This document shows positions 7,301-22,525 of a DNA stretch of 22,525 nucleotides, piece after piece. Under the pieces are notes generated by a model. The model had not been told where the DNA came from. It was given only the letters and a program-made list of their open reading frames with translations, and did no database searches. The position numbers were made by a program, and so were the translations under genes. Numbering within the stretch: position 1 is the stretch's first letter; each line of letters opens with the position of its first letter. Source of the stretch: a virus. The DNA is taken from positions 1-22,525 of IMG/VR virus record IMGVR_UViG_3300047557_002079. The stretch is one strand, 5' to 3'.

Positions 7301-10300
7301 TTACCGTCACATCGAATGCAACAGACTTAAATACGGCGTCGACTATTGTTGCCAGAAACGCTTCTGGCAATTTTGCTGCCGGAACAATTACAGCATCGCT
7401 GTCGGGCAATGCAACATCTGCAACAACAGCTACAAACTTAGCTGGTGGTAGCGCCGGGACTGTGCCATATCAGTCTGCTGCTGGCACTACTGCAATGTTG
7501 GCTGCCGGTACGGCTGGGCAGTATTTACAGTCAAATGGCGCCGCAGCGCCTAGTTGGGCAACGCTTCCAACAATAGGCAACGGAACGTTGTCCATGGGAG
7601 TGTCTGGTAATGGTCTGTCAGGTTCTGCCACGTTTACCGCAAACCAATCTGGCGGCGCAACATTCACAGTTACGTCTAATGCAACGGCAGCTAATACGGC
7701 GAACACCATTGCATATCGGGATGCAAACGGCGGGTTCGCTATTGGATATGTGAATAACAATACTTGGTACAACTATAACGACAATGATCGCAACGCTGGC
7801 AGTGCAACGTACTACCCAAATGCGTCCACAAGAGCTGTACGGTATTTCTTTGCCAACTCTAGTTCAACCGGAACGGGCGGCAACTATGCAGGTGTTCTAC
7901 AGTTCAATCCTTGGGACGGAACCACTGCTAGTACTGGCGATGCGTCATACCAACTAGCGTTTGGATCAACTGCTGCCAATGGTGGCGGCATACCACAGCT
8001 AAACATTCGCAAAGGTATCGATACCACGTGGAATAGCTGGTACACGATACTGCACTCAGGTAACTATAACAACTACAGCCCAACATTGTCTGGCGCCGGG
8101 GCAAATGGCACGTGGGCTATTAACGTTACCGGGTATTCCGCTTATGTATCAAATGCAGTAACGTTTAATAACGGTGGAGCTGGCGGAGCTTCGGGCTCTA
8201 CCTTTAATGGCAGCTCTGCATTGACTGTAAGCTACAACACAGTAGGTGCGCCAAGTACAACTGGCACAAATGCAAGCGGCACTTGGGGCATTAACATTAC
8301 AGGTAATGCGGCAACGGCTACAACCGTCTCACGCGGATCCGGCAACATCGCGGAAGTCACGGCGCCTGGATCCGGGACCTACAACAAGCACGTCGTCTAC
8401 GCCACCGCTGCGGAATTCGGGATCGAGGCCGCGCTTGCGACCGACGCCGTGGGCGGGGCCAAGTTGCCGGTGGTCTTAACTTGGCGTGGTGGTTACGCGG
8501 TTCAAGGCGGTCTCAAGATCACCGGCCCGTCGGCTGCCGAGCTTGGCGGCAACGTCGTACTCCATGCCGGCAACTATACGTCGTATGTTGGCAATGGCAC
8601 GTTAACGTTAGGCGTATCTGGCAACGGATTATCAGGTTCGCAAACGTTCACCGCAAACCAATCTAGTGCTGCGACGTTCACGGTGACGTCGAATGCCACA
8701 AGCGCAAATACGGCTTCAACAATTGTTTTTCGTGATGCGTCAGGAAACTTTTCTGCCAATGCAGTTACGACCGCATCAGATTCAACAATTAGCACGCTAA
8801 CTATCGGTCGCGGCGCGGGCTCGGTTGCAAGCAATACAGCCATTGGCGTAAGTGCGCTGTCAACCAATACGACGGGCTCAAATAATACCGCCGTAGGCAA
8901 CGGGGCGCTTATTTCCAACACAACGACATTTGGTTCAACGGCTATTGGCGACAACGCCATGTACTACATGCGCGGTAACAGCAATACTGCTGTTGGCCGC
9001 CAAGCAATGTTTGGATCGTTAACTCCGGCGAATAACACCGGAGCTAACAACGTCGCAGTTGGATATTTAGCTGCGCAAACAATTACCAGCGGAAACTATA
9101 ACGTCGCGCTTGGTGTTAATTCTTTGCGCAATGTAACCACAGGAACGTATAACGTCGGAGTTGGTGCGGAAACGCTCTATAACATAAGCTCGCAACTAAA
9201 TAATGTTGCGGTTGGTTTTCAAACGCTGTATTACATGGGCGGCACGGCCAACATTGGTATTGGCTATCTTGCCATGACTGGCAGTACAACGCCGGCCAAT
9301 AATTTTGGGTCATACAATATTGCGCTGGGCCAAGAAGCGTTGGCGGGGGTGACGTCGGGAAGTTACAACATTGCGATTGGCTATCAAGCATTAGACGCAA
9401 ACACCACTGCAAGTTCCAATGTTGCAATAGGCACAAGCACACTGGGTTTAGCAACAACCGCGACGCAAAATGTTGCCGTGGGTTCAGCGGCGCTTGCGGC
9501 AACCACCGGCAGTCAAAACACTGCAATTGGCGAATCGGCTGGAACATCAATCACCACGGGGTCAAAGAACACAATTATTGGCCGGTATACCGGCAATCAA
9601 GGCGGGCTCAACATTGCCACCTTGAGCAATTACATTGTGCTGTCTGATGGAGATGGCAATCCGCGTGGATACTTTGACAATAATGGTAATTACATAGTTG
9701 GCGCCGACATTCGCTCTACATCGCAAAACGGCGGGCAGATGACGGGTTTTCGCAATATGGTTATCAATGGCGGCATGGTCATTGATCAGCGAAATAACGG
9801 AGCTGCGGTTGTATATACAGCTGCTACACAAACGTATGTGGTAGATAGGTTTGGATGCTTTGGAACGTTAGCCGGAAAATTTACGATTCAAAGAAACCAA
9901 GGGTCTGTTACTCCTCCAGCGGGTTTTTCTAATTATCTGGGAGTCACATCATCTGCCGCCACCACCCCAGGAGCAACAGATCTTTATGCGCTGTTCCACA
10001 AAATTGAAGGGTTTAATTTTTCCAGGGCTTCATTTGGAACTGCGAACGCACAGTCGCTTATCCTCTCATTTTGGGTGCGCAGTTCACTCACAGGAACGTT
10101 TGGCGGCGGGTGTTTTAATTCGGCTGCAAACAGAAACTATGTGTTTTCGTATTCAATATCCACCGCCAATACATGGGAGCGCAAATCTATAACTATCCCC
10201 GGAGACACGACGGGAACGTGGTTAACAGACAACGGCGTTGGTTTTCAATGGTGGACGGATTTGGGATCGGGATCCTCAAATAGAGGAGCAGCCGGATCAT

Positions 10301-10722
10301 GGACGACGAACGTATTTTATGGAGTAACTGGCGGAGCCAGCATTGTTGGCACAAGCGGAGCTACATTTTATATAACCGGAGTTCAACTGGAAGTAGGTAC
10401 TGCGGTAACGCCGTTTGAACATCGCAACGTCGCAACAGAATTTTCCATGTGCCAACGATATTACGAAGTTGGGTCAGATATTAGCCTTTGGTCTGGATAT
10501 GCGGTCAATGGAAGCACGTACTATTCCTTGTGTAGATTTGCTACGACAAAACGCGCCAGTCCGACGGTGGTGTCGACTTATGTAGCAGCGGCGGGGTTTC
10601 CGGCAACGGCACCCGCCACACTGGCGAACCGCTCCGATCAATTTTGGGCGTCCGCAGTTTGTAATGTAACGTCCAATGGCGGGTATTTCCAGTTCTCTTG
10701 GACGGCTAATGCGGAGCTATAG
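4309..10722 (+). CDS. Giant modular tail fibre protein (2137 aa)
   Basis: The largest complete gene here. Residues 1-105 form a conserved fibre N-terminus (VKDRVRVITTTTGTSDFSLG, VSYPAERAVYLN) that probably docks to the virion. Residues about 145-323 hold a second known phage fibre domain (DIANKSYVD, ITYHTPVK, NGIYEVT). From about 500 to 1470 come Thr/Ala/Gly-rich modules, with five copies of NGTL(T/S)-type sequence, interrupted by three inserted domains (about 783-935, 1142-1254 and 1341-1424). Residues about 1509-1755 are a YadA-head-like run of N-x-A-x-G repeats. The end (1811-2137) begins NMVINGGMVIDQR and holds GVQLEVGTAVTPFEHR and CQRYYE, a widespread phage lectin-like or carbohydrate-binding tip. 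It is most likely the main receptor-binding fibre. GAG in TGAGAG near 4300 may be its weak ribosome-binding site. Confidence 0.85.
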   Translation: MALVVKDRVRVITTTTGTSDFSLGSAVTGYQSFSVIGNNNTTYYVAVDPSTGDWEVGVGTFLSAGPTLTRDTILESSNAGSKVVFAAGAKDVFVSYPAERAVYLNAAGSAVDVLDIGTLGTSTANISNANITAGTVATTPTSATDIANKSYVDTIASSGITYHTPVKYEVPNTTGNLNATYNNGVAGVGATLTNAGTKAAFAPDGPTAQVGDRILVYNQTNAFENGIYEVTTVGTPDPGGTNWVLTRTSDANSYAVKDPNKLGNGDAFFITSGNTGAGETYVCNTVGPITFGTTAITFVQVSDATLYTAGTGLTLSGTQFSITPVGTAGTYGSASQVPVIVTNASGQVSSVTNTAIAISAGAVSGLAASATTDTTNANNITSGTLDIARISGSYTGISGVGTLTAGTWNASTIGAAYGGTGFASYAVGDLLYADTTTSLAKLADVVVGNALISGGVGTAPSWGKIGLTTHVSGTLGVANGGTGAATLTGYVYGNGTGSFTASTSIPNGATTATSANTASAIVARDASGNFSAGTITAALSGNASTATSATTATNLAGGSVGTIPYQTAAATTAMLAVGTSGQYLKSNGAAAPSWDNLPAVNNGTLTMAVSGTGLSGSATFTANQAGNSTFTVTSNATSSNTASTIVARDASGNFSASTITASLSGNATSATTSTNLAGGSAGTIPYQSAAGTTAMLAAGTAGFYLQANGAAAPSWVAPPTIGNGTLTMNVSGNGLSGSQTFTANQSGNATYTVTSNATSANTASTIVFRDASGNFNAGIVTATQGGYTLPDTGVSAQWIYLGRWSGMTQAGAKLQIKIVAAAGYNASIAQNCLTEIYFKTSNGSSFQAGTTGNFFADGQAWRTGPTATTPSTIRVVQTNTTTYDIYGNFAAYSGVNSFYTVSVANGSWTHSGTIVTPTGNSIDLPVYQILDSNNYNIYAPTLTGTGASGTWGINITGNAATATTAGNVNNGTLTMNVSGTGLSGSATFTANQAGNSTFTVTSNATDLNTASTIVARNASGNFAAGTITASLSGNATSATTATNLAGGSAGTVPYQSAAGTTAMLAAGTAGQYLQSNGAAAPSWATLPTIGNGTLSMGVSGNGLSGSATFTANQSGGATFTVTSNATAANTANTIAYRDANGGFAIGYVNNNTWYNYNDNDRNAGSATYYPNASTRAVRYFFANSSSTGTGGNYAGVLQFNPWDGTTASTGDASYQLAFGSTAANGGGIPQLNIRKGIDTTWNSWYTILHSGNYNNYSPTLSGAGANGTWAINVTGYSAYVSNAVTFNNGGAGGASGSTFNGSSALTVSYNTVGAPSTTGTNASGTWGINITGNAATATTVSRGSGNIAEVTAPGSGTYNKHVVYATAAEFGIEAALATDAVGGAKLPVVLTWRGGYAVQGGLKITGPSAAELGGNVVLHAGNYTSYVGNGTLTLGVSGNGLSGSQTFTANQSSAATFTVTSNATSANTASTIVFRDASGNFSANAVTTASDSTISTLTIGRGAGSVASNTAIGVSALSTNTTGSNNTAVGNGALISNTTTFGSTAIGDNAMYYMRGNSNTAVGRQAMFGSLTPANNTGANNVAVGYLAAQTITSGNYNVALGVNSLRNVTTGTYNVGVGAETLYNISSQLNNVAVGFQTLYYMGGTANIGIGYLAMTGSTTPANNFGSYNIALGQEALAGVTSGSYNIAIGYQALDANTTASSNVAIGTSTLGLATTATQNVAVGSAALAATTGSQNTAIGESAGTSITTGSKNTIIGRYTGNQGGLNIATLSNYIVLSDGDGNPRGYFDNNGNYIVGADIRSTSQNGGQMTGFRNMVINGGMVIDQRNNGAAVVYTAATQTYVVDRFGCFGTLAGKFTIQRNQGSVTPPAGFSNYLGVTSSAATTPGATDLYALFHKIEGFNFSRASFGTANAQSLILSFWVRSSLTGTFGGGCFNSAANRNYVFSYSISTANTWERKSITIPGDTTGTWLTDNGVGFQWWTDLGSGSSNRGAAGSWTTNVFYGVTGGASIVGTSGATFYITGVQLEVGTAVTPFEHRNVATEFSMCQRYYEVGSDISLWSGYAVNGSTYYSLCRFATTKRASPTVVSTYVAAAGFPATAPATLANRSDQFWASAVCNVTSNGGYFQFSWTANAEL
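6109..8763 (+). repeat. Five copies of the fibre module beginning NGTLxM/L-V-SGxGLSG
   Basis: Copies begin near 6109, 6472, 7213, 7576 and 8590. The distances 6109-6472 and 7213-7576 are both 363 bases (121 residues). Each copy carries SGxGLSGSxTFTANQ, TFTVTSNAT or close variants and then NTA(S/N)TI. The first, third and partly the fourth continue into the NLAGGSxGTxPYQ and YLQSNGAAAPSW parts. A partial copy lacking the first half lies at about 5826-6108. Copies agree well in protein but differ at many third codon positions. Confidence 0.85.
8331..8580 (+). other. High-GC inserted cassette inside the tail fibre
   Basis: By hand count 163 of 250 bases are G or C (65%), against 47-53% in 60-base blocks on each side. 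Codons here end mostly in C or G (GTC, ATC, ACC, GCC, AAG), unlike the mixed third positions of the rest of the gene. The product (residues about 1341-1424) includes GNIAEVTAPGSGTYNKHVVY, FGIEAALATDAVGG and VVLTWRGGYAVQGG, then LHAGNYTSYV, which rejoins the repeat module. The frame is kept. This suggests a receptor-binding or chain-extension cassette acquired by recombination from a GC-rich source. Confidence 0.75.
8815..9600 (+). repeat. About 15 YadA-head-like repeats (N-x-A-I/V/L-G)
   Basis: Motifs NTAIG, NTAVG, STAIG, NTAVG, NVAVG, NVALG, NVGVG, NVAVG, NIGIG, NIALG, NIAIG, NVAIG, NVAVG, NTAIG and NTIIG follow one another at roughly 13-27 residue spacing, most followed by a small residue pair and Leu or Met (for example GNGAL, GYQAL). 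This is the pattern of the left-handed parallel beta-roll in trimeric autotransporter heads and in some phage fibres. It predicts a trimeric beta-roll shaft before the lectin-like tip. Confidence 0.8.
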
Positions 10723-11593: not shown

Positions 11594-12091
11594 ATGGCAC
11601 CCCTACTGGCAGGCATAGTTTCTTCTCTCATACAGAACAACTTGCCCAAGGTTGCACAAGCAGTTGTTGACAAGGGTCTGGATTATGTGCAGGAGAAGAC
11701 CGGTATTGAGCTGAAGCCTGATATGAGTCAGGACGAAATCAAGGCTTTGCGTGAAGCTGCTCAGAAGCATGAAGAGTTCAAGATCGAGCAGGCGAACAAG
11801 AACACGGCAGACGCTCGGGCTATGCAGGTAGCGGCGCTTCAGCAGGACGATAAGTTCTCTAAGCGTTTCGTGATGTACTTGGCTACCTTCTGGTCGCTGA
11901 CGGCGGTGGCTTACATCTTCCTGATTACGTTCACGAACATCCCCGAACTCAACGTCCGGTTCGCAGACACAATATTGGGATTCTTGCTTGGCACAGTGGT
12001 GGCGACGATCCTGAACTTTTTTCTTGGGTCGAGCGCTGGATCTAAAGAGAAAACCGAAGCTTTGACGGCGGAGCTGAAGCATGATCGCTAA
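11594..12091 (+). CDS. Holin, GTA/3-TM holin family
   Basis: This 165-residue protein has a hydrophobic N-terminal helix (MAPLLAGIVSSLI), a charged helical middle with a Glu/Lys-rich stretch and the motif NTADARAMQ (residues 70-78), and two clear membrane segments at about 93-113 and 124-146, followed by a short basic-acidic tail. This order matches the holin superfamily known from gene transfer agents and many proteobacterial phages (Holin_3TMs, PF11351, named from memory). It would form the membrane lesion that lets the endolysin reach the wall. A ribosome-binding site GGAG (11584-11587) precedes it. It overlaps the endolysin gene by 11 bases, which supports a joint lysis cassette. Confidence 0.8.
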   Translation: MAPLLAGIVSSLIQNNLPKVAQAVVDKGLDYVQEKTGIELKPDMSQDEIKALREAAQKHEEFKIEQANKNTADARAMQVAALQQDDKFSKRFVMYLATFWSLTAVAYIFLITFTNIPELNVRFADTILGFLLGTVVATILNFFLGSSAGSKEKTEALTAELKHDR

Positions 12092-12626
12092 CTGGGACTT
12101 TGCATTTACCAAGATGATCGGACATGAGGGCGGGTTCACGGACGACCCGCAAGATCCGGGCAACAAGTTGCCAGACGGGCGACCGGGCTGTACAAACCTT
12201 GGTGTAACGCAACGCGCCTGGGAAACCTATGTTGGCCGGCAGGTAACGCATGATGAGATGCGGGCACTTACGCCGGCTGCGGTAAAGCCCTTCTACAAAA
12301 CACAATATTGGGATAAAGTACGCTGTGACGATCTGCCACACGGGGTAGACTACGTGGTCTTCGATACGTGTGTTAATTCCGGCCCCGGTCGGGCGGCCAT
12401 GATTCTTCAGGAAGCGGCTGGTGCTAATCCTGATGGTTCTATTGGCCCCATGACTTTGCGAGCCGTGCAAGCGCAGCCTGTCAATGCGCTCATCTCAGAT
12501 TTTTGTGCCCGCCGTTTAGCATTTATGAAGAACCTCCCAGGTTGGGGCCGGTTTGGCGGCGGTTGGGAACGCCGCGTACAAGAAACAGAGAAGTACGCCC
12601 TAGGCCTAGTGCCCAAGGATAATTGA
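12081..12626 (+). CDS. Endolysin, GH108 N-acetylmuramidase
   Basis: This 181-residue protein has the GH108 hallmark GHEGGF at residues 14-19, with Glu16 the expected catalytic residue. Further family signs are a T-N-L-G-V-T segment (38-43), the YW pair (76-77), FDTCVNSGPGR (94-104), and DGSIGPMTL (118-126) in the C-terminal peptidoglycan-binding-like part (PG_binding_3), then WGRFGGGWERR. Length agrees with single-domain GH108 lysozymes. There is no signal peptide or SAR helix, so release through the holin is expected. GGAG at 12071 lies upstream of ATG 12081. It would hydrolyse the MurNAc-GlcNAc bond of peptidoglycan. No Rz/Rz1 spanin pair is recognisable after it. Confidence 0.9.
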   Translation: MIANWDFAFTKMIGHEGGFTDDPQDPGNKLPDGRPGCTNLGVTQRAWETYVGRQVTHDEMRALTPAAVKPFYKTQYWDKVRCDDLPHGVDYVVFDTCVNSGPGRAAMILQEAAGANPDGSIGPMTLRAVQAQPVNALISDFCARRLAFMKNLPGWGRFGGGWERRVQETEKYALGLVPKDN

Positions 12627-12627
12627 C

Positions 12628-14253
12628 ATGCCAAGCACCTACTCCCCAAGTCTAAAGATACAACTGATTGGCATTGGCGAAGAGACCAATCAGTGGGGTT
12701 CCATCACAAATACGAACTTTCAGTATGCCCTTGAAGAGGGGATTACTGGTTACGCGGACGCCACCTTCCCGACGGACTCCAACTATGCGTGGGGCGCGGG
12801 TTATGTTAACTCTAACGGCGCACAAGCGCAGCGCAACCTTGTGATTCGCGTGCTTGGGACGATCTCGGCCACTCGCGAATTCATCGTTCCGACGATTGAG
12901 AAGCAGTACATCATCTTCAACAACACGGTTGGCGGCCAAGCAATATTGGTCAAAACGTCGGGCGGCACCGGCGTAACCATACCGAACGGCGTGCGCATGC
13001 ACGTCTTTGTTGACGGGGTAGATGTTGTCCAAATGGACAACTATGATGTTACGCGGACCATTGGGTCGTTGACGTTAACAACTGCTCTGCCCATAGCATC
13101 TGGCGGGACGGGCGCTGCAAATGCGCCGGCAGCTCGAACCAATCTTGGATTGGCTATTGGTACGGACATTCCAAGCCCTACGGGAACCGGGGCCTCCGGC
13201 ACCTGGGGGATTAGCATCACTGGGAATGCGGCGACGGCTACGACGGCTACGACGTCTGGCAACGTGACCGGCACGGTGGCTGTAGCAAATGGCGGAACTG
13301 GAGCGACGACGGCGCCAAATGCCCGGACCAATCTTGGATTAATTATTGGCACAGATATTCCGTCGCCTACGGGAACTGGTGCTTCTGGAAACTGGGCAAT
13401 CAACGTTACGGGCACCTCTGCCAATGTGACCGGGACTGTTGCTATTGCTAATGGCGGGACGGGCGCCGCGACAGCGCAGTTGGCTATCAACGCTTTGGCC
13501 GGGGCTACCACGGCTGGACAATATTTGCGTGGCAACGGCACCAATATTGTGATGTCGGCTATCCAGGCTGCGGATGTGCCGACGCTAAACCAAAACACGA
13601 CTGGCACAGCGGCCAATGTAACAGGCACGGTTGCAATTGCTAATGGCGGCACCGGGCAAACGACGGCAACCGCAGCAATCAATGCGCTGCTGCCAAGTCA
13701 GTCTAGCCAAAGCGGCAAATACCTGACAACGGACGGCACTAATACGTCATGGGCAACGGTGGCGGGCGGTGTAACAACGTTTTCTGCTGGCACTACAGGG
13801 TTTACCCCTAGCACAGCAACATCTGGTGCCATAACCTTAAGTGGCACGTTAGCGGTAGCCAACGGTGGAACGGGTGTCACAACGTCGACTGGTACGGGTT
13901 CAACCGTATTAAGCACAAACCCAACGCTGTCTGGGGTTACGCTAAACGACGGCTACACAGAAGAAATCGCAGTCATTTCTGGAACATCTCCGTCCTTGAG
14001 TCCGGCTAATGGTTCGATTCAGACGTGGATATTAGCCGCAAGCAGCAACCCGTCATTTGGCACGTGGAATAATGGGCAGAGCATTTTGTTAATGATTGAC
14101 GATGGCTCGTCATACACGGTAACGTGGCCAAGCACGACGTGGCTTACGAATGGCGGTTTGGCGCCAACATTGGCAACATCTGGTTATACCGCCATCGTTC
14201 TGTGGAAAGTTGGCGGTACAGTGTATGGCGCACGCGTCGGAGACAATGTGTAA
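12628..14253 (+). CDS. Second tail fibre protein (541 aa)
   Basis: A ribosome-binding site (AAGGA, 12615-12619) lies 8 bases before the ATG. Residues 1-140 are a conserved phage fibre N-terminus (STYSPSLKIQLIGIGEETNQ, WGSITNTNFQYALEEGI, then VPTIEKQYIIFNNTVGGQA and GVRMHVFVDGVDVVQMD), probably for docking. Residues about 150-440 hold GGTG-centred repeats with ARTNLGLxIGTDIPSPTGTG (twice) and VTGTVAxANGGTG (three times), a standard flexible or beta-helical fibre pattern. The last 100 residues (SPANGSIQTWILAASSNPSF, GQSILLMIDDGSSYTVTWP, then LWKVGGTVYGARVG) form a known C-terminal phage fibre domain. It shares the segment GTGASGTWGI.ITGNAATAT with the giant fibre upstream. The stop TAA overlaps the next ATG (TAATG). 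Probably a secondary receptor-binding fibre. Confidence 0.85.
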   Translation: MPSTYSPSLKIQLIGIGEETNQWGSITNTNFQYALEEGITGYADATFPTDSNYAWGAGYVNSNGAQAQRNLVIRVLGTISATREFIVPTIEKQYIIFNNTVGGQAILVKTSGGTGVTIPNGVRMHVFVDGVDVVQMDNYDVTRTIGSLTLTTALPIASGGTGAANAPAARTNLGLAIGTDIPSPTGTGASGTWGISITGNAATATTATTSGNVTGTVAVANGGTGATTAPNARTNLGLIIGTDIPSPTGTGASGNWAINVTGTSANVTGTVAIANGGTGAATAQLAINALAGATTAGQYLRGNGTNIVMSAIQAADVPTLNQNTTGTAANVTGTVAIANGGTGQTTATAAINALLPSQSSQSGKYLTTDGTNTSWATVAGGVTTFSAGTTGFTPSTATSGAITLSGTLAVANGGTGVTTSTGTGSTVLSTNPTLSGVTLNDGYTEEIAVISGTSPSLSPANGSIQTWILAASSNPSFGTWNNGQSILLMIDDGSSYTVTWPSTTWLTNGGLAPTLATSGYTAIVLWKVGGTVYGARVGDNV

Positions 14254-15479
14254 TGATTTTTGCCAGACTGCTCGCAGCTACCGCTTCTGCGTACTCAACA
14301 CGACAAATCATTGTGTCGGGTGACCCCGGCGCCAATGAAATATTTGGATGGGTTGTTGCGCTCTCCGACGACGGTCAGACAATAGCGGCTGGTTCACCCG
14401 CAGACGATAGTACGTTTAGCGATACTGGCGCGGTGTACATTTTTACCAAGTCAGGCTCTTCTTGGACGCAACAGCAAAAGCTAACGGCAAGCGACAGGGA
14501 AACGTCTGATTTTTTTGGGAGGTCTGTTGCTATTTCGGCTGATGGCAATACAGTGATTGGCGGCGCCCCTTTTGAAGACGTGTCGCCTTACACGACAAAT
14601 GGAGCTGCGTACGTTTTTACTAGGTCTGGATCAACTTGGACAGAACAGGCAAAGCTTGCGCCAAATGATATGGAAGGGGGCGAGCGATTTGGCTGGTCTG
14701 TTGCGCTATCAGATGACGGTAACACGGCTCTTATTGGGGCATATTTAGAAAACACATCGCCATACACAGACAACGGCGCGGCGTATGTGTTTACGCGTTC
14801 TGGCTCAACATGGACGCAGCAGGCCAAATTAACGGCAAGCGATTTGCAGACCAGTGATTTGCTTGGCATTTCGGTGGCTCTGTCTAGCGACGGAAACACA
14901 GCAATACTGGGCGCTTCCAATGAATCTACGTCTCCGTATACTTCTAATGGTGCGGCGTACGTGTTTACTAGGTCTGGCTCAACATGGACGCAGCAAGCAA
15001 AATTAACCGCGAGTGATTTAGGCAACAGTGATTATTTTGGCGTAAGCGTTGCCATATCTGATAATGGAAACACTGCCATCATTGGAGCCCCAGAAAAAAC
15101 GGGTTCGAACGGAGCGGTTTATGTGTTTACCCGATCCGGATCGACGTGGACGCAACAACAAAAGCTTGTTGCCCCCACTACGTTAGCCAGTTCAAAATTT
15201 GGTCAAAGCGTTGCCTTGTCTGGGGATGGTACGCAAGCCATGGTCGGCCGAATTGGCGGGTTCATTAATGATCCGGGCACTGCTTATTTGTACAAACTAC
15301 AAGGCGGCACATGGTCTGTGCGGCACCTGTTTACTATGGGCAGCAATTCAAGCGCTTCTTCAAACTATTACGGAAATGCGGTTGGCATTTCTGCGGACAC
15401 GGGCGCTGTAATTATTGTTGGGTTCCCGTATTACAACGACGGCACCGCTGATGTTGGCGGCGTTTACATTTATACGTAG
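14253..15479 (+). CDS. FG-GAP-repeat beta-propeller protein (seven blades)
   Basis: The start is placed at ATG 14253 in the TAATG overlap, with GGAGA at 14239-14243. An in-frame ATG at 14124 would lie 129 bases inside the fibre gene and is rejected. The 408-residue product is almost entirely seven repeats, residues 24-80, 81-138, 139-196, 197-254, 255-308, 309-363 and 364-408. The core pattern is D-x-F-G-x-S-V-A-x-S-x-D-G-N-T-A-x-x-G-A-P, then NGAAYVFTRSGSTWTQQAKL. This is the FG-GAP/integrin-alpha type beta-propeller. The N-terminus (MIFARLLAATASA) is weakly signal-like. Its coupling to a fibre gene suggests a virion surface adhesin, fibre-tip partner or secreted protein; function unproven. 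Confidence 0.75.
   Translation: MIFARLLAATASAYSTRQIIVSGDPGANEIFGWVVALSDDGQTIAAGSPADDSTFSDTGAVYIFTKSGSSWTQQQKLTASDRETSDFFGRSVAISADGNTVIGGAPFEDVSPYTTNGAAYVFTRSGSTWTEQAKLAPNDMEGGERFGWSVALSDDGNTALIGAYLENTSPYTDNGAAYVFTRSGSTWTQQAKLTASDLQTSDLLGISVALSSDGNTAILGASNESTSPYTSNGAAYVFTRSGSTWTQQAKLTASDLGNSDYFGVSVAISDNGNTAIIGAPEKTGSNGAVYVFTRSGSTWTQQQKLVAPTTLASSKFGQSVALSGDGTQAMVGRIGGFINDPGTAYLYKLQGGTWSVRHLFTMGSNSSASSNYYGNAVGISADTGAVIIVGFPYYNDGTADVGGVYIYT
14322..15476 (+). repeat. Seven FG-GAP-like repeats of 45-58 residues
   Basis: The repeat lengths are 57, 58, 58, 58, 54, 55 and 45 residues. Blades 2-5 are close copies (AAYVFTRSGSTWT or its AVYVF variant in all four), while blades 1, 6 and 7 are diverged. 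Blade 7 stops at VYIYT and lacks the WT..QKL outer strand seen in the others. The N-terminal TRQIIVSG could supply that strand and close the ring. Confidence 0.8.
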
Positions 15480-15481
15480 CC

Positions 15482-17404
15482 ATGACGCTCAAGAAACTTG
15501 TCCTCAAGCCCGGCGTCAACCGGGAGAATACGCGATATACCATGGAGCAAGGTTGGTATACCAGCGATAAGGTACGGTTTCGTCAGGGCACGCCCGAAAA
15601 GATTGGCGGGTGGACCCGATTGTCGCAGTATGAATATCTCGGTGTCTGCCGCGCATTGTTTTCTTGGGCGGCGCTGGATTCCAATGTTTGGACAGCGGTT
15701 GGCACCAACCTTAAGTTTTACGTAACGCTGGGTACGCAATACTATGACATCACGCCCATCAGGTCGACGACCCCAGCTGGCGCGGTCACGTTTTCTGCGG
15801 TAACGGTTTCTCCGTATAGCTCAACCATTACCGTCACGGACGTTGCGCATGGCGCATTGATCAATGACTTTGTGACATACAGCGGCGTTGCCGTGGGCGG
15901 CCTGGGTGGCAACATTACGCAGGCTGTGCTTGAGCAGGAATATCAAGTAGCACAAGTTATTGATCAAGATACATACACCATTATTGCCAAAGACCCGACC
16001 ACAGGTTTGCCGGTTACTTCTAACGCTTCAGATACCGGGAATGGTGGAGCGACGGTAATAGCCGCTTATCAAATTAACACTGGGAGCGCGATTGCAACCG
16101 TGCCTAGCCCGGGGCCGTCAGCGTCTTGGGGTTTGGGTAGCTGGGGTTCAGGCCCGTGGGGCGGCGGCGCTAACGTTGTGTTGCCGTTGCGCGTATGGAG
16201 CGAAGGCAACTTTGGCGAAGACCTAATCTTTGGGCCGCGTGGCGGGGGCATGTACTACTGGGACACAAGTCTTGGTACGAATGTGCGAGCGGTTGCGCTG
16301 GATGGGATTCTAGGCGCCACCGATGTGCCGACTGTTCAAAACTTCATTCTGATCTCAGACATTTATCGGTTTGTGTTTGCGTTTGGCTGTAATGACTACG
16401 GCTCTTCTACACAAGATCCGATGTTAATTCGATGGTCAGATCAAGAGGATTCAATTAATTGGTCGCCGTCGGCTACTACGCAGGCTGGAAGTCTCCCGTT
16501 GTCTCGCGGATCAGAGATCATCACAGCCATCCAATCACGGCAAGAGATTGTGGTATGGACGGATACTGCGGTCTATTCATTGCAATATTTGGGCGCTCCC
16601 GAAGTGTGGGGAGCTCAGCTTCTAGGCGACAATATTTCTATCGCTGGTCAGAATGCAGTAGCTTTTTCCAATGGCGTTGCATTTTGGATGGGCGTAGACA
16701 AGTTCTACCGGTATGACGGTCGAGTTCAAACATTGCGATGCGACCTTCGGCAGCATGTGTTTGGCGACATTAATTTGTTGCAGTTGGGGCAGGTATGCTC
16801 AGGGACCAACGAAGGCTTTAACGAAGTCTGGTGGTTCTATTGCTCTGCAAATTCCACTGTTGTAGACCGGTACGTGGTGTACAACTATTTAGAAGACATT
16901 TGGTATTACGGGTCTTTGGGTCGCACCGCGTGGATTGATTCTGGGTTGAGGGCGTACCCGTTGGCCGCGACGTATAGCAACAATCTTGTCGAGCATGAGT
17001 ACGGTGTTGATGACAATCAAACGGACGTGACTTTGCCGATTGTTGCAACAATTGAGTCGGCGGAATTTGACTTGGATGATGGTGACAAGTTCATGTTCAT
17101 TCGGCGGGTTCTGCCAGATATTACGTTCCGTGGATCGACGGCGAATAACCCATCTGGGGAGCTGTCGCTGATTCCCATGCAGAACTCCGGTTCGGGCTAT
17201 AACAATCCGCGTTCGGTTGGCGGGTCAAGTAACGCTGGCGTGGTGCGTAGCGCTACAGTTCCGATTGAGCAGTTTACTGGTCAGGTCTATATTCGTGTAC
17301 GCGGGCGACAGATTATTGTGAAGTTTGAGTCGTCGGATGTTGGCGTAGCATGGCAGCTTGGTTCGATGAGGCTTGACGTGCAGCCTGACGGGAAGCGAGC
17401 ATGA
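15482..17404 (+). CDS. Tail hub-like virion protein (P22 gp10-like, tentative) with inserted domain
   Basis: The 640-residue protein starts MTLKKLVLKPGVNRENTRYT and includes WYTSDKVRFRQGTPEKIGGW near the N-terminus. The motif VRFR.G.PEKIGGW is very common in aquatic-phage tail proteins. Further landmarks are WGLGSWGSGPWGGG, LIFGPRGGGMYYW, MLIRWSDQEDSINW and VWTDTAVYSLQYLG, then ISIAGQNAVAFSNGVAFWMG and YRYDGRVQTLRC. This pattern of repeated W/D-rich strands fits a beta-propeller-like hub, as known for P22 gp10 and T7 tail tubular protein B. Family identity is suggested, not proven; P22 gp10 is shorter (about 470 residues). Residues about 100-200 look inserted. The stop overlaps the next ATG (ATGA). 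Confidence 0.6.
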   Translation: MTLKKLVLKPGVNRENTRYTMEQGWYTSDKVRFRQGTPEKIGGWTRLSQYEYLGVCRALFSWAALDSNVWTAVGTNLKFYVTLGTQYYDITPIRSTTPAGAVTFSAVTVSPYSSTITVTDVAHGALINDFVTYSGVAVGGLGGNITQAVLEQEYQVAQVIDQDTYTIIAKDPTTGLPVTSNASDTGNGGATVIAAYQINTGSAIATVPSPGPSASWGLGSWGSGPWGGGANVVLPLRVWSEGNFGEDLIFGPRGGGMYYWDTSLGTNVRAVALDGILGATDVPTVQNFILISDIYRFVFAFGCNDYGSSTQDPMLIRWSDQEDSINWSPSATTQAGSLPLSRGSEIITAIQSRQEIVVWTDTAVYSLQYLGAPEVWGAQLLGDNISIAGQNAVAFSNGVAFWMGVDKFYRYDGRVQTLRCDLRQHVFGDINLLQLGQVCSGTNEGFNEVWWFYCSANSTVVDRYVVYNYLEDIWYYGSLGRTAWIDSGLRAYPLAATYSNNLVEHEYGVDDNQTDVTLPIVATIESAEFDLDDGDKFMFIRRVLPDITFRGSTANNPSGELSLIPMQNSGSGYNNPRSVGGSSNAGVVRSATVPIEQFTGQVYIRVRGRQIIVKFESSDVGVAWQLGSMRLDVQPDGKRA

Positions 17405-18774
17405 CGCTGATTGTCACGACAGACTATGAGCTGCAAAAGATAGCTCCGCCCGCCCTGCCGCAAGCCACCCCGATTTATTCCCAGGCGTATCAGGATCAGT
17501 TCAACAATGTTCTGCGTCTGTACTTCAACCGACTAAACAACATTCTGAGCCAGCTCATGGCAATTGACACGTCTATTCCGATTTCCTTCCCGCCGACCGC
17601 ACTGGATGCGTTTGGCCGGCAGCGTGTTAGTCAGCCATATACGCTCTTCGATAGCCAAAACCGATATGCCGCTGACAACCAATTTGACGTGGCTGTCACG
17701 GGGACGGGGGTTGCTACATACTTGCCCAACGAAGCAGCGGTCAAGATGGAAGTTACGGGCGCCGGCGCTGGGTCGGTAGTGCGGCAGAGCTATCGTTCGT
17801 TCCCGTATCAGCCCGGCAAGGGGCTGTTGGTGTTGGCAACATTTGTGATGGATGGAAGCCAAAACCTAAATTTGACGCAGCGGGTTGGTTACTACAACGC
17901 ACAAAACGGTGTCTTCTTCCAGCGCATTGATGGCACGTATTCGTTTGTCCTACGTTCGTATGTAACCGGATCGGTGTCAGATGCGCGGACGGTTAACCAA
18001 TCTAGTTGGAACGGCGACAAACTGGATGGTACTGGCCCATCAGGGTTAACCCTAGATCCCAGCAAAGCTCAAATATTGTGGATGGATTTTGAGTGGCTGG
18101 GTGTTGGCTCGGTGCGATGCGGCTTCATCATCAACGGTCAGTACATTGTTTGCCATACGTTTGAGAATGCCAACGTCATTGCCAACGTGTACATGACGAC
18201 TGCAATATTGCCTGTGCGGTACGAGATTGTCAGTACGGCGGCGGTTGCTGCGTCCATGAAAGCGATCTGTTGCTCGGTGGTTTCAGAGGGCGGCTTTGAG
18301 CAAACGTCGATTGATCATGTTGCGCGGCGAACGACAATCTTAGGCACAATAAGCACGACATTCCTGCCGTTGGTGTCGATTCGTTTGGCCTCCGGCAGGC
18401 TGGGCGCGGTAGTGCTGCCAAATCGCATTCAGATGCTCCCCACCACAAGCCAAAACTATGAGATTGCGTTGGTCAAAAATCCAACACTGACGAGCGCGTC
18501 TTGGGTGGCGGTGCCAACAGATTCCAATGTTGAGTACGATGTATCTGCGACAGCAATGACAGGCGGCAGCATTGTGCAAACCGATTACGTTACGGCATCA
18601 GGATCTGGTGGCGTTGGCAATACAAGCGAGCCTACCGGTTATAACTGGGATTTGCAGTTAGGGGCTAGCATTGCTGGCGTGAGCGACATATACACGTTGG
18701 GAGTGCGCGTGGTGTCTGGGGCTACAACCGGCGACGCTGTTGGGTCGCTTTCGTTCTACGACTTGACGCAGTAA
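17401..18774 (+). CDS. Conserved phage virion protein (DAFGRxRVSxPxTLFDSQxRY family)
   Basis: The 457-residue protein starts in an ATGA overlap. Residues 1-60 are helical (YSQAYQDQFNNVLRLYFNRL). Then comes the conserved block DAFGRQRVSQPYTLFDSQNR, followed by beta-rich sequence with VVRQSYRSFPYQPGKGLLVL, RVGYYNAQNGVFF, WNGDKLDGTGPSGLTLD, ILWMDFEWLGVGSVRCGF, and PVRYEIVS. The order DAFGR.RVS.P.TLFDSQ.RY, then YQPGK, RVGYF...NGVFF, W..DKLDG.GPSG...D....Q......WLG.G.VR.GF is known to me from large tailed phages, including marine ones, always unassigned. It is probably a structural protein of the tail or baseplate. Its fusion of an N-terminal helical segment with the beta block may be variable between phages. 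Confidence 0.65.
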   Translation: MTLIVTTDYELQKIAPPALPQATPIYSQAYQDQFNNVLRLYFNRLNNILSQLMAIDTSIPISFPPTALDAFGRQRVSQPYTLFDSQNRYAADNQFDVAVTGTGVATYLPNEAAVKMEVTGAGAGSVVRQSYRSFPYQPGKGLLVLATFVMDGSQNLNLTQRVGYYNAQNGVFFQRIDGTYSFVLRSYVTGSVSDARTVNQSSWNGDKLDGTGPSGLTLDPSKAQILWMDFEWLGVGSVRCGFIINGQYIVCHTFENANVIANVYMTTAILPVRYEIVSTAAVAASMKAICCSVVSEGGFEQTSIDHVARRTTILGTISTTFLPLVSIRLASGRLGAVVLPNRIQMLPTTSQNYEIALVKNPTLTSASWVAVPTDSNVEYDVSATAMTGGSIVQTDYVTASGSGGVGNTSEPTGYNWDLQLGASIAGVSDIYTLGVRVVSGATTGDAVGSLSFYDLTQ

Positions 18775-18789
18775 TTAGGACGCGCCGAC

Positions 18790-21700
18790 ATGGGCTGGTT
18801 GAAAGATCGATTAAAAGACGCTGGGGACTTTTTTTTCCACGGTGGCCTTGAAGATGACATCAAGGAGCTAGGTCGTTCCATTGACGATAGCGTTCATTCG
18901 CTTGGTCGGCGCGTTGAAGACACGATCAAGGGATTTGCAAAGCAGATTGAAGACGATCCGCTTAAAGCGGCGGCGTCTGCGTTAGCTATTTACTCTGGTC
19001 AGTGGTGGGCGCTTCCTGCTGTTAACGCAACAGATGCGCTGCTTGCCGGCGCGGACTTGGAAGATGCGGCCAAGATAGCTGCAAAAACCGCAGCCGCCCA
19101 ATACATTACCCAGCAAATTACAGGGTACGTGGGCGAGTCCGATACGGTTCGCCAGTTTGGGCGTGACATATCAGAGTTGTTGGATGCGCAAAGTGCGCCC
19201 GGTGGCGTGGATTCATGGTCGGAATGGGCAGATTACGCGGAAGCGGCCATACCCGAAGAAGACATTATTGCGTTTGCCAACCTTGGATCGAATGGTCTTA
19301 ATGCAGCCGCGCAAACTGTCGTAAGCGGGGTCGCTGGCGCCGCTGCTGCGGGTGTTAATGCGCTGATTCAAAAGAAAGACATTCCGTCAGCGCTACTGCA
19401 AAGCGTTACAAACACAGCGTTCCGCACTGTGTTGAACTCGGGGCTGTCGAACGACGCAATTAGAAATGCTCCGGACTTTGTGAAGCGGGCGTTGGCCACT
19501 GCTGGCGCGGCGGGTGTGCTTGGCGAAAGCATGTCGCAGGCGGGCGCAGGATCATTGCTTAATGACGCAATGATTTATGTCAAAGACCAGCTTGCAGATA
19601 AATACAAAGATCTAACAAAAACAATTTCGAGCACATTCCCAAACCCATGGGAATCTATGCAAGGCGGCCCAGACACGTTTACGAGTACCGCCGACCCTAT
19701 GGACAAAGCCAGGGCCGCGCTTAATTCGTTTACCAAGTGGTCAGAAGCGGCAAAGTTACAGTACAAACGGTATGAAACCGCGTTTAATAATATTCCCGTA
19801 TTTCAAGAGGAATTAACTTCGCATTACAACATGCTCACAGATCCGGCTGCATTTGCTGCGGCTCGACGCGATCCGAATAGCGGTTATGGCTATTCGTGGA
19901 TGAGCGATGATTTTGCTAAAGAGCGTATGTTGCAGGCGTATAAAAACGCCGAAACCGGGCTAACCAATTCTAAGTTGGTGGTATCAGAGTTTTCGTCGCA
20001 ATATTGGCCAGAATTTTTACCAAAATTAGAGGCGGCACGGCAGCGGTTTGCAACGGAAGTAGCAAACGCTACTAATATTGATGCGCAATTGGCAGCAGAA
20101 GCGCTGTCAACAATGCAAACGTATGATCAGATTGCCAATACCGTTGCGCTTGCGCAAGGCGTAGACGTAAGCAAAGCGGATCGAGTGCAGATTCGCAACT
20201 TAATGGATCAAGACAAACCGCTAGAGGCGGCGTACAACTACGCGGTTAAGACAAATCCCAACTTCCTTACAGAGTCCATCAAGAAGTATGAGTCCGACGT
20301 TGCAGCGGGCAAGACGCCTGACTACAACGCCATGGACCTTTTGGTGCGAGACCTTAGTAAATACGATGTTGTAAAGCGCCTCAATCCGGATTTCAATGCT
20401 GATGAGTACAAAAAGATCAATCAGCTGGACGTCTCCAATCCGTATGAGCACTACCTAACCAAGGGTAAAGACGAAGGATTGATGGGCAGCCAGTTGGAAA
20501 CAAACTGGCGTACGTCATTAGAGAAGTCCCGGTTGCTTGGTGAGGCCGCCCAGTTAATTGGCGTTGGTGTCAATGAACTGTCGCCAGAAACTCGACAGGC
20601 TCTTAGCACGGCAATTGACCAAAAGTTTGCAGATCCCCGCGACTTCAAAGAGATGGCAGAAACATCTCTGCGCAATTGGGATGATGTTGCTGGTTTGAAG
20701 TTGGCCCCTGCCCGTCTGGCCACGCTGAAGTCTGGCGAAGGAATGCAGATTGACGTGTCTGGTGCTGGCATCAAAGCTGTGGAAAGTTTTGAGTTTGGCC
20801 CTGATGACAAGCTTGCTGCGATGGGCTATAGGCGGCAAGCAGATATTGACGCGGATATTTCCAAGGGTAATGCAGAGCTACAAAAATATTTTGGCAAGTC
20901 AATTACAGATAAGGTTCGGATTGGCACCACCGACGATATGGCGCGTGGTGTTGGAAAGTTTATTGAGATACCTAATACCAATACGCGAGCGTATGTGGTG
21001 TCGGTAGCCCCAGATGCAGAGCTAGATGCTGTGCCTTCAGATAATCTTGCTCGCCTAGATACTCTGGTCAATGCGCCGGCATCGTACTTTGATGGCGATG
21101 AACAGTTACGCGATTACTTCAAAGGCATATTAGACGCCGCAAAGGGCGCTGCGCTTAATACGCCCGCTGTTCAATTGTTGCAATTTGCCGGCAACGCAAT
21201 TGAAACGATGGTTCCTGACACCGCCAAAGGCGTCGGGATGAAGGCGGCGGCCAATGTTATTCAATCGTTCAATGGGCTGGTAACGTTAGCGGGCATCAAC
21301 CCGTCGAGCACGCCGGTTGGTAAGTTTGCCGAACAACTGATGGAACTTGGCAAGGCCAAGACTTCAGATGAATATCGCGCTGCCGTAGCGGCGATGGAAA
21401 AGAATTACGGAGAGGCCAAGGGCGCTTGGGGTGCGGCCAAAGCGATCTGGGGCAACCTTACAAACTATCCAACAGAATTCCTGTCAGAAGTTGTCATTTC
21501 TGAAGGTCTGCAAGAAATTGTCCCGCTGCTAATTGGTGGTGGCGCGACAGTCGCGGCCCGTGGTTTGGCGCTTGCCCGTGGCATGGGAACCAAGCTGGCC
21601 CAACAAATGGGTGCGCGGGCAGGTCTGGCCGCAGGGGCCGTATCTGATATTGCTGAGAGCGTAGGCGGCTCAGCTGGCAATGCGTTTGAAGAAGCTTATG

Positions 21701-22525
21701 ACATTGCCAAAAACAAGATGGGCAAGTCAGAGGCTGAGGCAACAGAGATTGCTCTTGGCGTAGCTGCGCGGTCAGGTCTTATATCTGGCATGGTTACCGG
21801 CCTGTCGCTTGGCATGGGCGGTGGCGCACTGGAAAAGGCATTCCTGGGTAAAACCGGCTCAGGGAATCTAGCGTCGACCATTGAAGAAGTTGGTCGGCGC
21901 ATGAAAGATGGCGTCAAGATTGTTGGCAAAGAGTTCGCCTCTGAAAGCATAGAAGAAGGGTTAACCAGTGCTTATACAGAAAGCCAGCTTTACGCGCTTG
22001 ATCCTAGCCGTGACGTAGGCGCCAATATTGCAACGTCCATGATTCTGGGCGGAATTGCGGGCGGCGGAACTGCGGGCAGTGCTTACGGTGCCAAAGCCAG
22101 CAGAGACATCATCGCGAACGCGCTGGCCATCAACCCGCAGGTTCAGCAGACAATTCAAAGTGCGCCCAATATTGCGGAGGCGCAAAAGGCGTTAGGAGAT
22201 CTTGGCATATCGAACGCTGCTGTTCAAACGGATCTGTTGAATAACAAGTTCGATGGTCAGATTGTTAGTTCAAACGAAGCGTATTCAGCCCTTCGTAATA
22301 ACACGGGGTATAACCCAACAGATGCAGATGTTGCGGCACTGTCAGGCGTTCGTCCGGAGGCCAACCTACAGAACGATGCGCTTCAGTATATTGATCCGCG
22401 CATGGTTGATGAGGCGGAAGTGCGCCAAGCCATGCAAGCGCTTGGATATAGCTCGCCCACCAACGAAGAGGTTGCGCAATATTTGGGGCAGCGTGACGAA
22501 GCCGGCACGTTAGGCGACATTAATC
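18790..22525 (+). CDS. Giant virion protein, N-terminal 1245 residues (3' end outside window)
   Basis: Read by eye from ATG 18790 (AGGA at 18777-18780, 9 bases upstream), the frame stays open to the last base. The N-terminus (MGWLKDRLKDAGDFFFHGGL, DDPLKAAASALAIYSGQWWA) is a familiar start of giant aquatic-phage proteins. Residues 535-565 (FNADEYKKINQ, NPYEHYLTKGKDEGL) match the Y....PDV...P..HYL..G..EGR motif known from secreted or repeat proteins. Residues about 905-1105 have glycine-rich hydrophobic helices (IVPLLIGGGATVAARGLALA, GLISGMVTGLSLGMGGGAL, SMILGGIAGGGTAGSAYG) alternating with acidic segments. Residues 1173-1245 start a repeat (GYNPTDADVAALSG, GYSSPTNEEVAQYLGQ). A DNA-ejection or internal-core role is inferred; a polyvalent multi-domain protein is also possible. 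No enzyme motif is seen in this part. Confidence 0.7.
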   Translation, partial: MGWLKDRLKDAGDFFFHGGLEDDIKELGRSIDDSVHSLGRRVEDTIKGFAKQIEDDPLKAAASALAIYSGQWWALPAVNATDALLAGADLEDAAKIAAKTAAAQYITQQITGYVGESDTVRQFGRDISELLDAQSAPGGVDSWSEWADYAEAAIPEEDIIAFANLGSNGLNAAAQTVVSGVAGAAAAGVNALIQKKDIPSALLQSVTNTAFRTVLNSGLSNDAIRNAPDFVKRALATAGAAGVLGESMSQAGAGSLLNDAMIYVKDQLADKYKDLTKTISSTFPNPWESMQGGPDTFTSTADPMDKARAALNSFTKWSEAAKLQYKRYETAFNNIPVFQEELTSHYNMLTDPAAFAAARRDPNSGYGYSWMSDDFAKERMLQAYKNAETGLTNSKLVVSEFSSQYWPEFLPKLEAARQRFATEVANATNIDAQLAAEALSTMQTYDQIANTVALAQGVDVSKADRVQIRNLMDQDKPLEAAYNYAVKTNPNFLTESIKKYESDVAAGKTPDYNAMDLLVRDLSKYDVVKRLNPDFNADEYKKINQLDVSNPYEHYLTKGKDEGLMGSQLETNWRTSLEKSRLLGEAAQLIGVGVNELSPETRQALSTAIDQKFADPRDFKEMAETSLRNWDDVAGLKLAPARLATLKSGEGMQIDVSGAGIKAVESFEFGPDDKLAAMGYRRQADIDADISKGNAELQKYFGKSITDKVRIGTTDDMARGVGKFIEIPNTNTRAYVVSVAPDAELDAVPSDNLARLDTLVNAPASYFDGDEQLRDYFKGILDAAKGAALNTPAVQLLQFAGNAIETMVPDTAKGVGMKAAANVIQSFNGLVTLAGINPSSTPVGKFAEQLMELGKAKTSDEYRAAVAAMEKNYGEAKGAWGAAKAIWGNLTNYPTEFLSEVVISEGLQEIVPLLIGGGATVAARGLALARGMGTKLAQQMGARAGLAAGAVSDIAESVGGSAGNAFEEAYDIAKNKMGKSEAEATEIALGVAARSGLISGMVTGLSLGMGGGALEKAFLGKTGSGNLASTIEEVGRRMKDGVKIVGKEFASESIEEGLTSAYTESQLYALDPSRDVGANIATSMILGGIAGGGTAGSAYGAKASRDIIANALAINPQVQQTIQSAPNIAEAQKALGDLGISNAAVQTDLLNNKFDGQIVSSNEAYSALRNNTGYNPTDADVAALSGVRPEANLQNDALQYIDPRMVDEAEVRQAMQALGYSSPTNEEVAQYLGQRDEAGTLGDIN
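22306..22525 (+). repeat. Start of a 46-residue repeat in the giant protein
   Basis: Two units are visible: GYNPTDADVAALSG at 22306 and GYSSPTNEEVAQYLGQ at 22444, 138 bases (46 residues) apart, allowing one inserted Ser. Between them lies YIDPRMVDEAEVRQAMQALG. The second unit is cut by the window end. The same Y(I/V)DPR.V...EV...(F/A)..LGY.(P)T..EV..(F/Y).GQ pattern recurs many times in giant aquatic-phage proteins, so more units are expected downstream. Confidence 0.65.

Follow-up and report, generated by a model that had tools for sequence, protein, structure and literature searches.

What is the protein whose gene runs off the end of the IMG/VR virus record IMGVR_UViG_3300047557_002079, and what might it do for the phage? 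The window analyzed here is the entire record (22,525 bases), and it closes with an open reading frame (ORF) that starts with an ATG at 18790 and continues for 1245 codons, to 22524, without a stop (plus strand, like all segments of this gene given below). A first-pass annotation of the DNA had described this open frame, and the description holds: at this base composition, a stop-free run of 1245 codons has a chance probability of about 2e-26. The ORF is unfinished because the contig ends at 22525. Another IMG/VR contig, L002, shows nucleotide identity with the window over all 3735 bases of the ORF and reads on in the same frame for 779 more codons, to codon 2024, with no stop before its own end. 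The translation beyond 22525 that the annotation had proposed is therefore available from L002, and the early stop just past the window, which the annotation had named as the finding that would count against it, is rejected. The frame is real and is truncated solely by the contig end. Complete versions of the gene encode 2326 residues in L004, 2207 in L008, and 2237 in L038, and the window ORF is the first half of a protein of about 2,200 residues from a short-tailed aquatic phage. This giant protein is probably an ejected, membrane-inserting internal virion (pilot) protein of a short-tailed phage with an SU10-type adaptor.

Pfam and PHROGs searches with the 1245 residues of the window returned no match. 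Used as queries, the conserved C-terminus and the glycine-rich region of the protein recovered about 30 distinct giant proteins, of which the complete ones measure 1346–2598 residues. They follow a common plan, in which an amphipathic N-terminus, an HYL..G..EG motif, a glycine-rich helical region of about 400 residues, repeats of about 47 residues, and a variable coiled coil are followed by a dockerin-type module and a conserved C-terminal tail. No full-length counterpart is present in 50,697 reference phage genomes; tblastn of the ORF and of its complete relatives against these records gave nothing, a coiled-coil match, or a coiled-coil match together with one N-terminal match. The work thus defines a family of giant virion-region proteins of uncultured phages that has no full-length counterpart in the reference collection.

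The evidence on function comes in large part from an all-helical Gly/Ala-rich region at residues 740–1150 (21007–22239). Invariant Glu and Gly residues recur in this region across 31 aligned sequences. The structure prediction suggested in the first-pass annotation for the glycine-rich part gives nearly all helix, at low confidence (mean pLDDT 61). The annotation had also placed three glycine-rich hydrophobic stretches between residues 905 and 1105, approximately, and these are borne out. The top 19-residue Kyte–Doolittle windows within that range start at residues 910, 987, and 1080, and correspond to residues 910–928 (21517–21573; score 1.65, four Gly), 987–1005 (21748–21804; 1.46, four Gly), and 1080–1098 (22027–22083; 1.11, six Gly).

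A segment of this region, residues 970–1105 (21697–22104), aligns in hhalign with the N-terminal domain of N4-like virion RNA polymerases (vRNAPs), at residues 325–446 of the N4 protein. The comparison of the glycine-rich profile with a profile of ten vRNAP N-terminal domains yields a probability of 87 and an E value of 3.7e-6. Its score is 48.1, whereas none of 120 column shuffles exceeded 26.4, and a second column-shuffle control gave 55.9 versus at most 29.5. Against the single N4 sequence the match is weak (probability 5), and it becomes significant only with the vRNAP profile. Positions 98–514 of the 3406-position profile of phrog_2206, ‘virion RNA polymerase’, which belong to its N-terminal part, are matched by four family members (L015, L020, L030, and L025) with E values from 9e-8 to 3e-4. 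Residues 1–600 of N4 gp50 belong to the same PHROG (E 1.3e-132), and six query controls, reversed, locally shuffled, or fully shuffled, gave no match. According to the literature, the N-terminal domain of N4 gp50 spans the membrane and has been incorporated into nanodiscs; its membrane helices are predicted at 224–278 (PMC12633501). Judging from these profile alignments, the glycine-rich region is probably a membrane module akin to the one in the injected RNA polymerase of N4. A sequence search of the PDB with the glycine-rich profile found nothing meaningful, and a fold search of the PDB with this region returned weak matches with E values no better than 0.3, most of them to helical membrane proteins. 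Foldseek against viral models also gave weak matches, a fragment of a phage RNA polymerase and several polyvalent proteins among them.

The second line of evidence is genomic position. The giant gene has known ejection genes as neighbors in a late cassette downstream of the nozzle. The genes encode, in order, the nozzle (phrog_3287), the phrog_1645 protein, the giant protein, proteins of about 290, 275, and 600 residues, and a large polyvalent protein. In the window, the plus strand encodes a 640-residue nozzle or ‘stabilization’ type tail protein at 15482–17404 (phrog_3287, E 3.4e-70), a 457-residue virion structural protein, possibly in the needle position, at 17401–18774 (phrog_1645, E 1.6e-106), and an SU10-type adaptor at 1136–2044 (PF24175, E 2.9e-20). 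The protein of about 275 residues, two genes downstream of the giant gene (+2), matches phrog_4287, a DNA ejection protein (E 3.7e-5). In SU10, the nozzle gp17 is followed by the needle gp18, the ‘membrane protein’ gp19, and gp20–24. The latter, gp20–24, are present in virions and gone after genome release (PMC9509320). Since the giant gene sits in the slot of the SU10 ejected proteins, in a genome with an SU10-type adaptor, an ejected, membrane-inserting virion protein is the best reading.

The neighboring genes extend this picture. Counterparts of the gene immediately downstream (+1), or fused counterparts, occur in MinM2, DSL-LC04, and MW202545.1, and the same three phages have counterparts of the +2 gene. 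In MW202545.1 (L085, 8947–10866), a Cys-rich protein of 639 residues joins the N-terminal segment of the giant family (hhalign E 3.3e-15) to the C-terminal GEYV module of the +1 protein (E 1.8e-6). This fusion is an argument for joint action of the two proteins. The cassette that contains it ends in an SLT transglycosylase. The large polyvalent protein has its own gene, the fourth one downstream from the giant gene; depending on the relative, it matches ddrB-ParB (1.3e-20) or LPD39 (1.7e-15), and it aligns with SU10 gp24 (E 1.5e-5) and N4 gp50 (8.6e-5).

The N-terminal half of the giant protein is partly exchangeable. The amphipathic segment formed by about the first 79 residues (18790–19026) is common across the family in blastp comparisons, and it is this segment that recurs in MW202545.1. 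An N-terminus typical of giant aquatic-phage proteins, as claimed in the first-pass annotation, is therefore found for approximately these 79 residues, and not for residues 1–445 as a whole (18790–20124), which are swapped in the close relative L004. The alignment with L004 starts at residue 446, and an unrelated module of 522 residues takes the place of the preceding part. Because the 640- and 457-residue genes just upstream are 99% and 98% identical between the window and L004, this difference represents a module exchange. The HYL..G..EG motif is present at residues 554–563 (20449–20478), and not at 553–564 as previously given.

Beyond the glycine-rich region, two repeat units are found in the window, at approximately residues 1151–1197 (22240–22380) and 1198–1244 (22381–22521), the first of which has blastp self-matches to later units. 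About three more units follow in L002. The terminal repeat noted in the first-pass annotation is thus real, with a best period of 47 and not 46 residues; 46 ranks second in the longer L002 protein. The repeat has no match among solved structures. The coiled-coil and low-complexity region that follows is very variable in length within the family.

The giant proteins then carry one or two dockerin-type modules. Pfam Dockerin_1 (PF00404, cut-off 22.9 bits) is matched by L008 (34.2), L038 (28.0), and L004 (24.4), while L002, the continuation of the window, scores 19.6, below the cut-off, and ends before the second module. A strict calcium-loop pattern lies within the last 260 residues of 22 of the 26 complete proteins and was found in none of the shuffled sets; L012, L013, and L040 show, by eye, a variant loop. 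The L008 module is modeled with confidence (block pLDDT 85–94, residues 21–90), and its seven best Foldseek matches in the PDB are dockerins or cellulosome complexes, each of them weak (E above 0.1). Alignment of the module model to these seven structures with VIA-align gave Z values of 5.2–6.1 over 47–59 residues. A predicted dockerin fold in the giant family is supported by the Pfam matches, the conserved loops, and the confident model, and the modules may bind calcium. No cohesin was found among the proteins of the window. The protein ends in a tail, ...VTVK.PDP..I.Y.YDW.SIFANP.Q..MF.SPYA.GG.V....ELL.IL.G, that is conserved in nearly all members.

From these features we infer how the giant protein may be packaged, ejected, inserted into a membrane, docked, and bound to calcium. 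Its place in the particle would be the head or the portal region, and its exit, by way of the nozzle, would precede or accompany that of the DNA. By analogy with the proposal made for the N4 gp50 N-terminal domain, the glycine-rich region (residues ~740–1150, core 970–1105) would unfold from a soluble bundle and insert into the inner membrane. An extensible rod of variable length would be built from the repeats together with the long coiled coil, and the dockerin modules and C-terminal tail may provide docking sites, probably calcium-dependent, to the portal or tail or to other ejection proteins. A bolder idea, to which we give little weight, is that the dockerin modules of the giant ejected protein are calcium-switched couplers, so that calcium would gate assembly of the DNA-ejection channel in an aquatic phage group that is widespread. 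In the head or the bulk medium, the folded dockerins would lock the coiled-coil rod to partner proteins, and the change in calcium on crossing the envelope would release or re-dock them.

The first-pass annotation had proposed ejection with the DNA and a role at the membrane. Synteny and the likeness of the glycine-rich region to the N4 vRNAP N-terminal domain support both, short of proof, and several observations weigh against them. The three hydrophobic segments are of moderate hydrophobicity (1.11–1.65), and the model of the glycine-rich region is weak, as its mean pLDDT indicates. The aligned core (N4 325–446) lies beside, and not on, the predicted membrane helices of N4, and significance against phrog_2206 is reached by family members and the profile, not by the window's own sequence. 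A segment of the polyvalent protein neighboring the giant gene in L004 also resembles the glycine-rich region (E 1.4e-5); this link comes from one sequence, and a 12-sequence profile of the polyvalent gene is not significant against the glycine-rich profile. The giant gene, moreover, lies near the position that the needle gene occupies in P22/SU10-type phages. The last point leads to the main rival explanation, in which the protein would be a needle, a plug, or a tape-like component of the tail, filling or protruding from the nozzle channel; this long trimeric coiled coil with dockerin-type joints would pierce the outer membrane and then be discarded. The SU10 gene after the nozzle is indeed the needle gp18, DSL-LC04 has a protein annotated as tail tape measure in the corresponding position, and there are weak matches between the long coiled-coil regions and tail fibre proteins. 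In our phage, however, the slot immediately after the nozzle is held by the 457-residue phrog_1645 protein, and at 1346–2598 residues the giant proteins far exceed the SU10 needle of 322 residues. The family shows no similarity to the N4 plug gp53, and SU10 gp18 matched neither the family N-terminus nor the glycine-rich region, the two parts compared. The best conserved region is a glycine-rich helical module like that of an ejected vRNAP, which would be unexpected in a needle, and we consider this explanation unlikely.

If the likeness of the glycine-rich region reflected only the general composition of helical bundles, the protein could instead be a head-internal scaffold, in the core or bound to the portal, neither ejected nor membrane-active. 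The low-confidence helical-bundle model and the borderline hydrophobicity would fit such a role, but the similarity to the vRNAP N-terminal domain exceeds that of reversed and column-shuffled controls of equal composition, which makes a scaffold quite improbable. We give the least credence to the idea of a polyvalent protein that uses its N-terminal half for delivery and its C-terminal part as an enzyme within the host, although the L004 segment and the giant polyvalent proteins listed by the structure search are in its favor. Enzyme domains beyond the window, as the first-pass annotation had envisaged, are absent from the complete relatives at the curated Pfam and NCBIfam cut-offs. What lies there is repeats, coiled coil, dockerin modules, and tail, and the enzymatic polyvalent protein is a gene of its own. 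With no two effector or enzyme domains in the chain, the proposal that the giant protein is itself the polyvalent effector was rejected.

Some further observations concern the rest of the locus. A short motif, [FMLY][AGR].GG.[VIAM], was noticed at 20 loci (including L004, L008, and L020), where it recurs in three neighboring proteins that are unrelated to one another, the giant protein, toward its C-terminus (19/20), the +1 protein (13/20), and the +3 protein (18/20), and in 0/70 upstream neighbors; some of the matches in giant genes fall in the glycine-rich region. Four independent phages gave 4/29 downstream versus 1/52 upstream, a weak test. The motif is a possible packaging or processing signal, a lead only, as it was noticed before it was tested. 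At 14124–15479 the window encodes an FG-GAP repeat protein (PF14312, 4.1e-82), and an unrelated-looking protein of 354 residues occupies the same slot in L002 (5376–6440) and L004 (60–1124). Otherwise near-identical phages differ here by the exchange of a probable tail-appendage gene. A tail-fibre-like protein of 2137 residues (4309–10722) has its end region in common with L002 and differs in the preceding part, and a GH108 endolysin (PF05838, 2.4e-25) is encoded between tail genes at 12081–12626. The adaptor gene at 1136–2044 also contains a glycine-rich segment of about 75 residues that matches tail-fibre and baseplate PHROGs, and a second gene, at 1–390, has SU10_adaptor similarity below the cut-off (E 6.4e-4).

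Ejection proteins are an already known kind of protein, and several systems can be set beside the giant family. SU10 (Kuravirus) gp19 and gp20–gp24 share with it the adaptor type and the place after the nozzle. No counterpart of the giant N-terminus or of the glycine-rich region was detected in SU10 gp18–gp24, and, as a further difference from SU10, no transglycosylase was found in the cassette of the giant protein. The ‘tail tape measure protein’ of DSL-LC04 (759 residues) and the 639-residue protein of MW202545.1 occupy the same post-nozzle slot, and both carry the C-terminal module of the +1 protein; the latter also has its N-terminal segment in common with the giant family. Both are a third of the giant's size or less, and the glycine-rich region was detected in neither; nor were repeats, coiled coil, or dockerin noted in them. 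A comparison with the DNA transfer protein of DSL-LC04 gave no match. The inner-membrane ejection proteins T7 gp16 and P22 gp16 are described as soluble in the virion and as inserting into the membrane after ejection (PMC8954989). The giant protein resembles them in its proposed function, and differs in that no transglycosylase domain was found in its family.

Two further systems resemble modules of the family. Type I dockerins (PF00404) of cellulosomes share the F-hand calcium loop D.N.D...(D/T/S)..D, and the module model aligns to them. The modules of the giant family differ in belonging to a phage virion-region protein and in their degenerate first loop. Type I dockerin homology (by blastp) has been mentioned for a gene of podophage VvAW1, and a dockerin-like carbohydrate module for a structural protein of HSE2. 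The literature searched offered no example of a protein that combines a vRNAP-type N-terminal module with repeats, a long coiled coil, and dockerin folds. The dockerin fold, best known from cellulosomes, would thus join the phage DNA-delivery apparatus, where calcium-dependent docking is directly testable. The N4 vRNAP gp50 (Schitoviridae) is likewise a giant protein encoded in the ejection region, and a core of about 120 residues, with G.S.EEA, KE.VEE, NIA..D...D, and a glycine-rich end, aligns beyond controls. In place of its polymerase domain the giant family has repeats, coiled coil, dockerin modules, and the conserved tail, and the complete relatives have no Pfam, PHROG, or NCBIfam match to a single-subunit RNA polymerase domain. 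Judged by this comparison, a portion of the membrane-associated N-terminal domain in the N4 vRNAP may be a transferable delivery part that other, polymerase-free ejection proteins also use.

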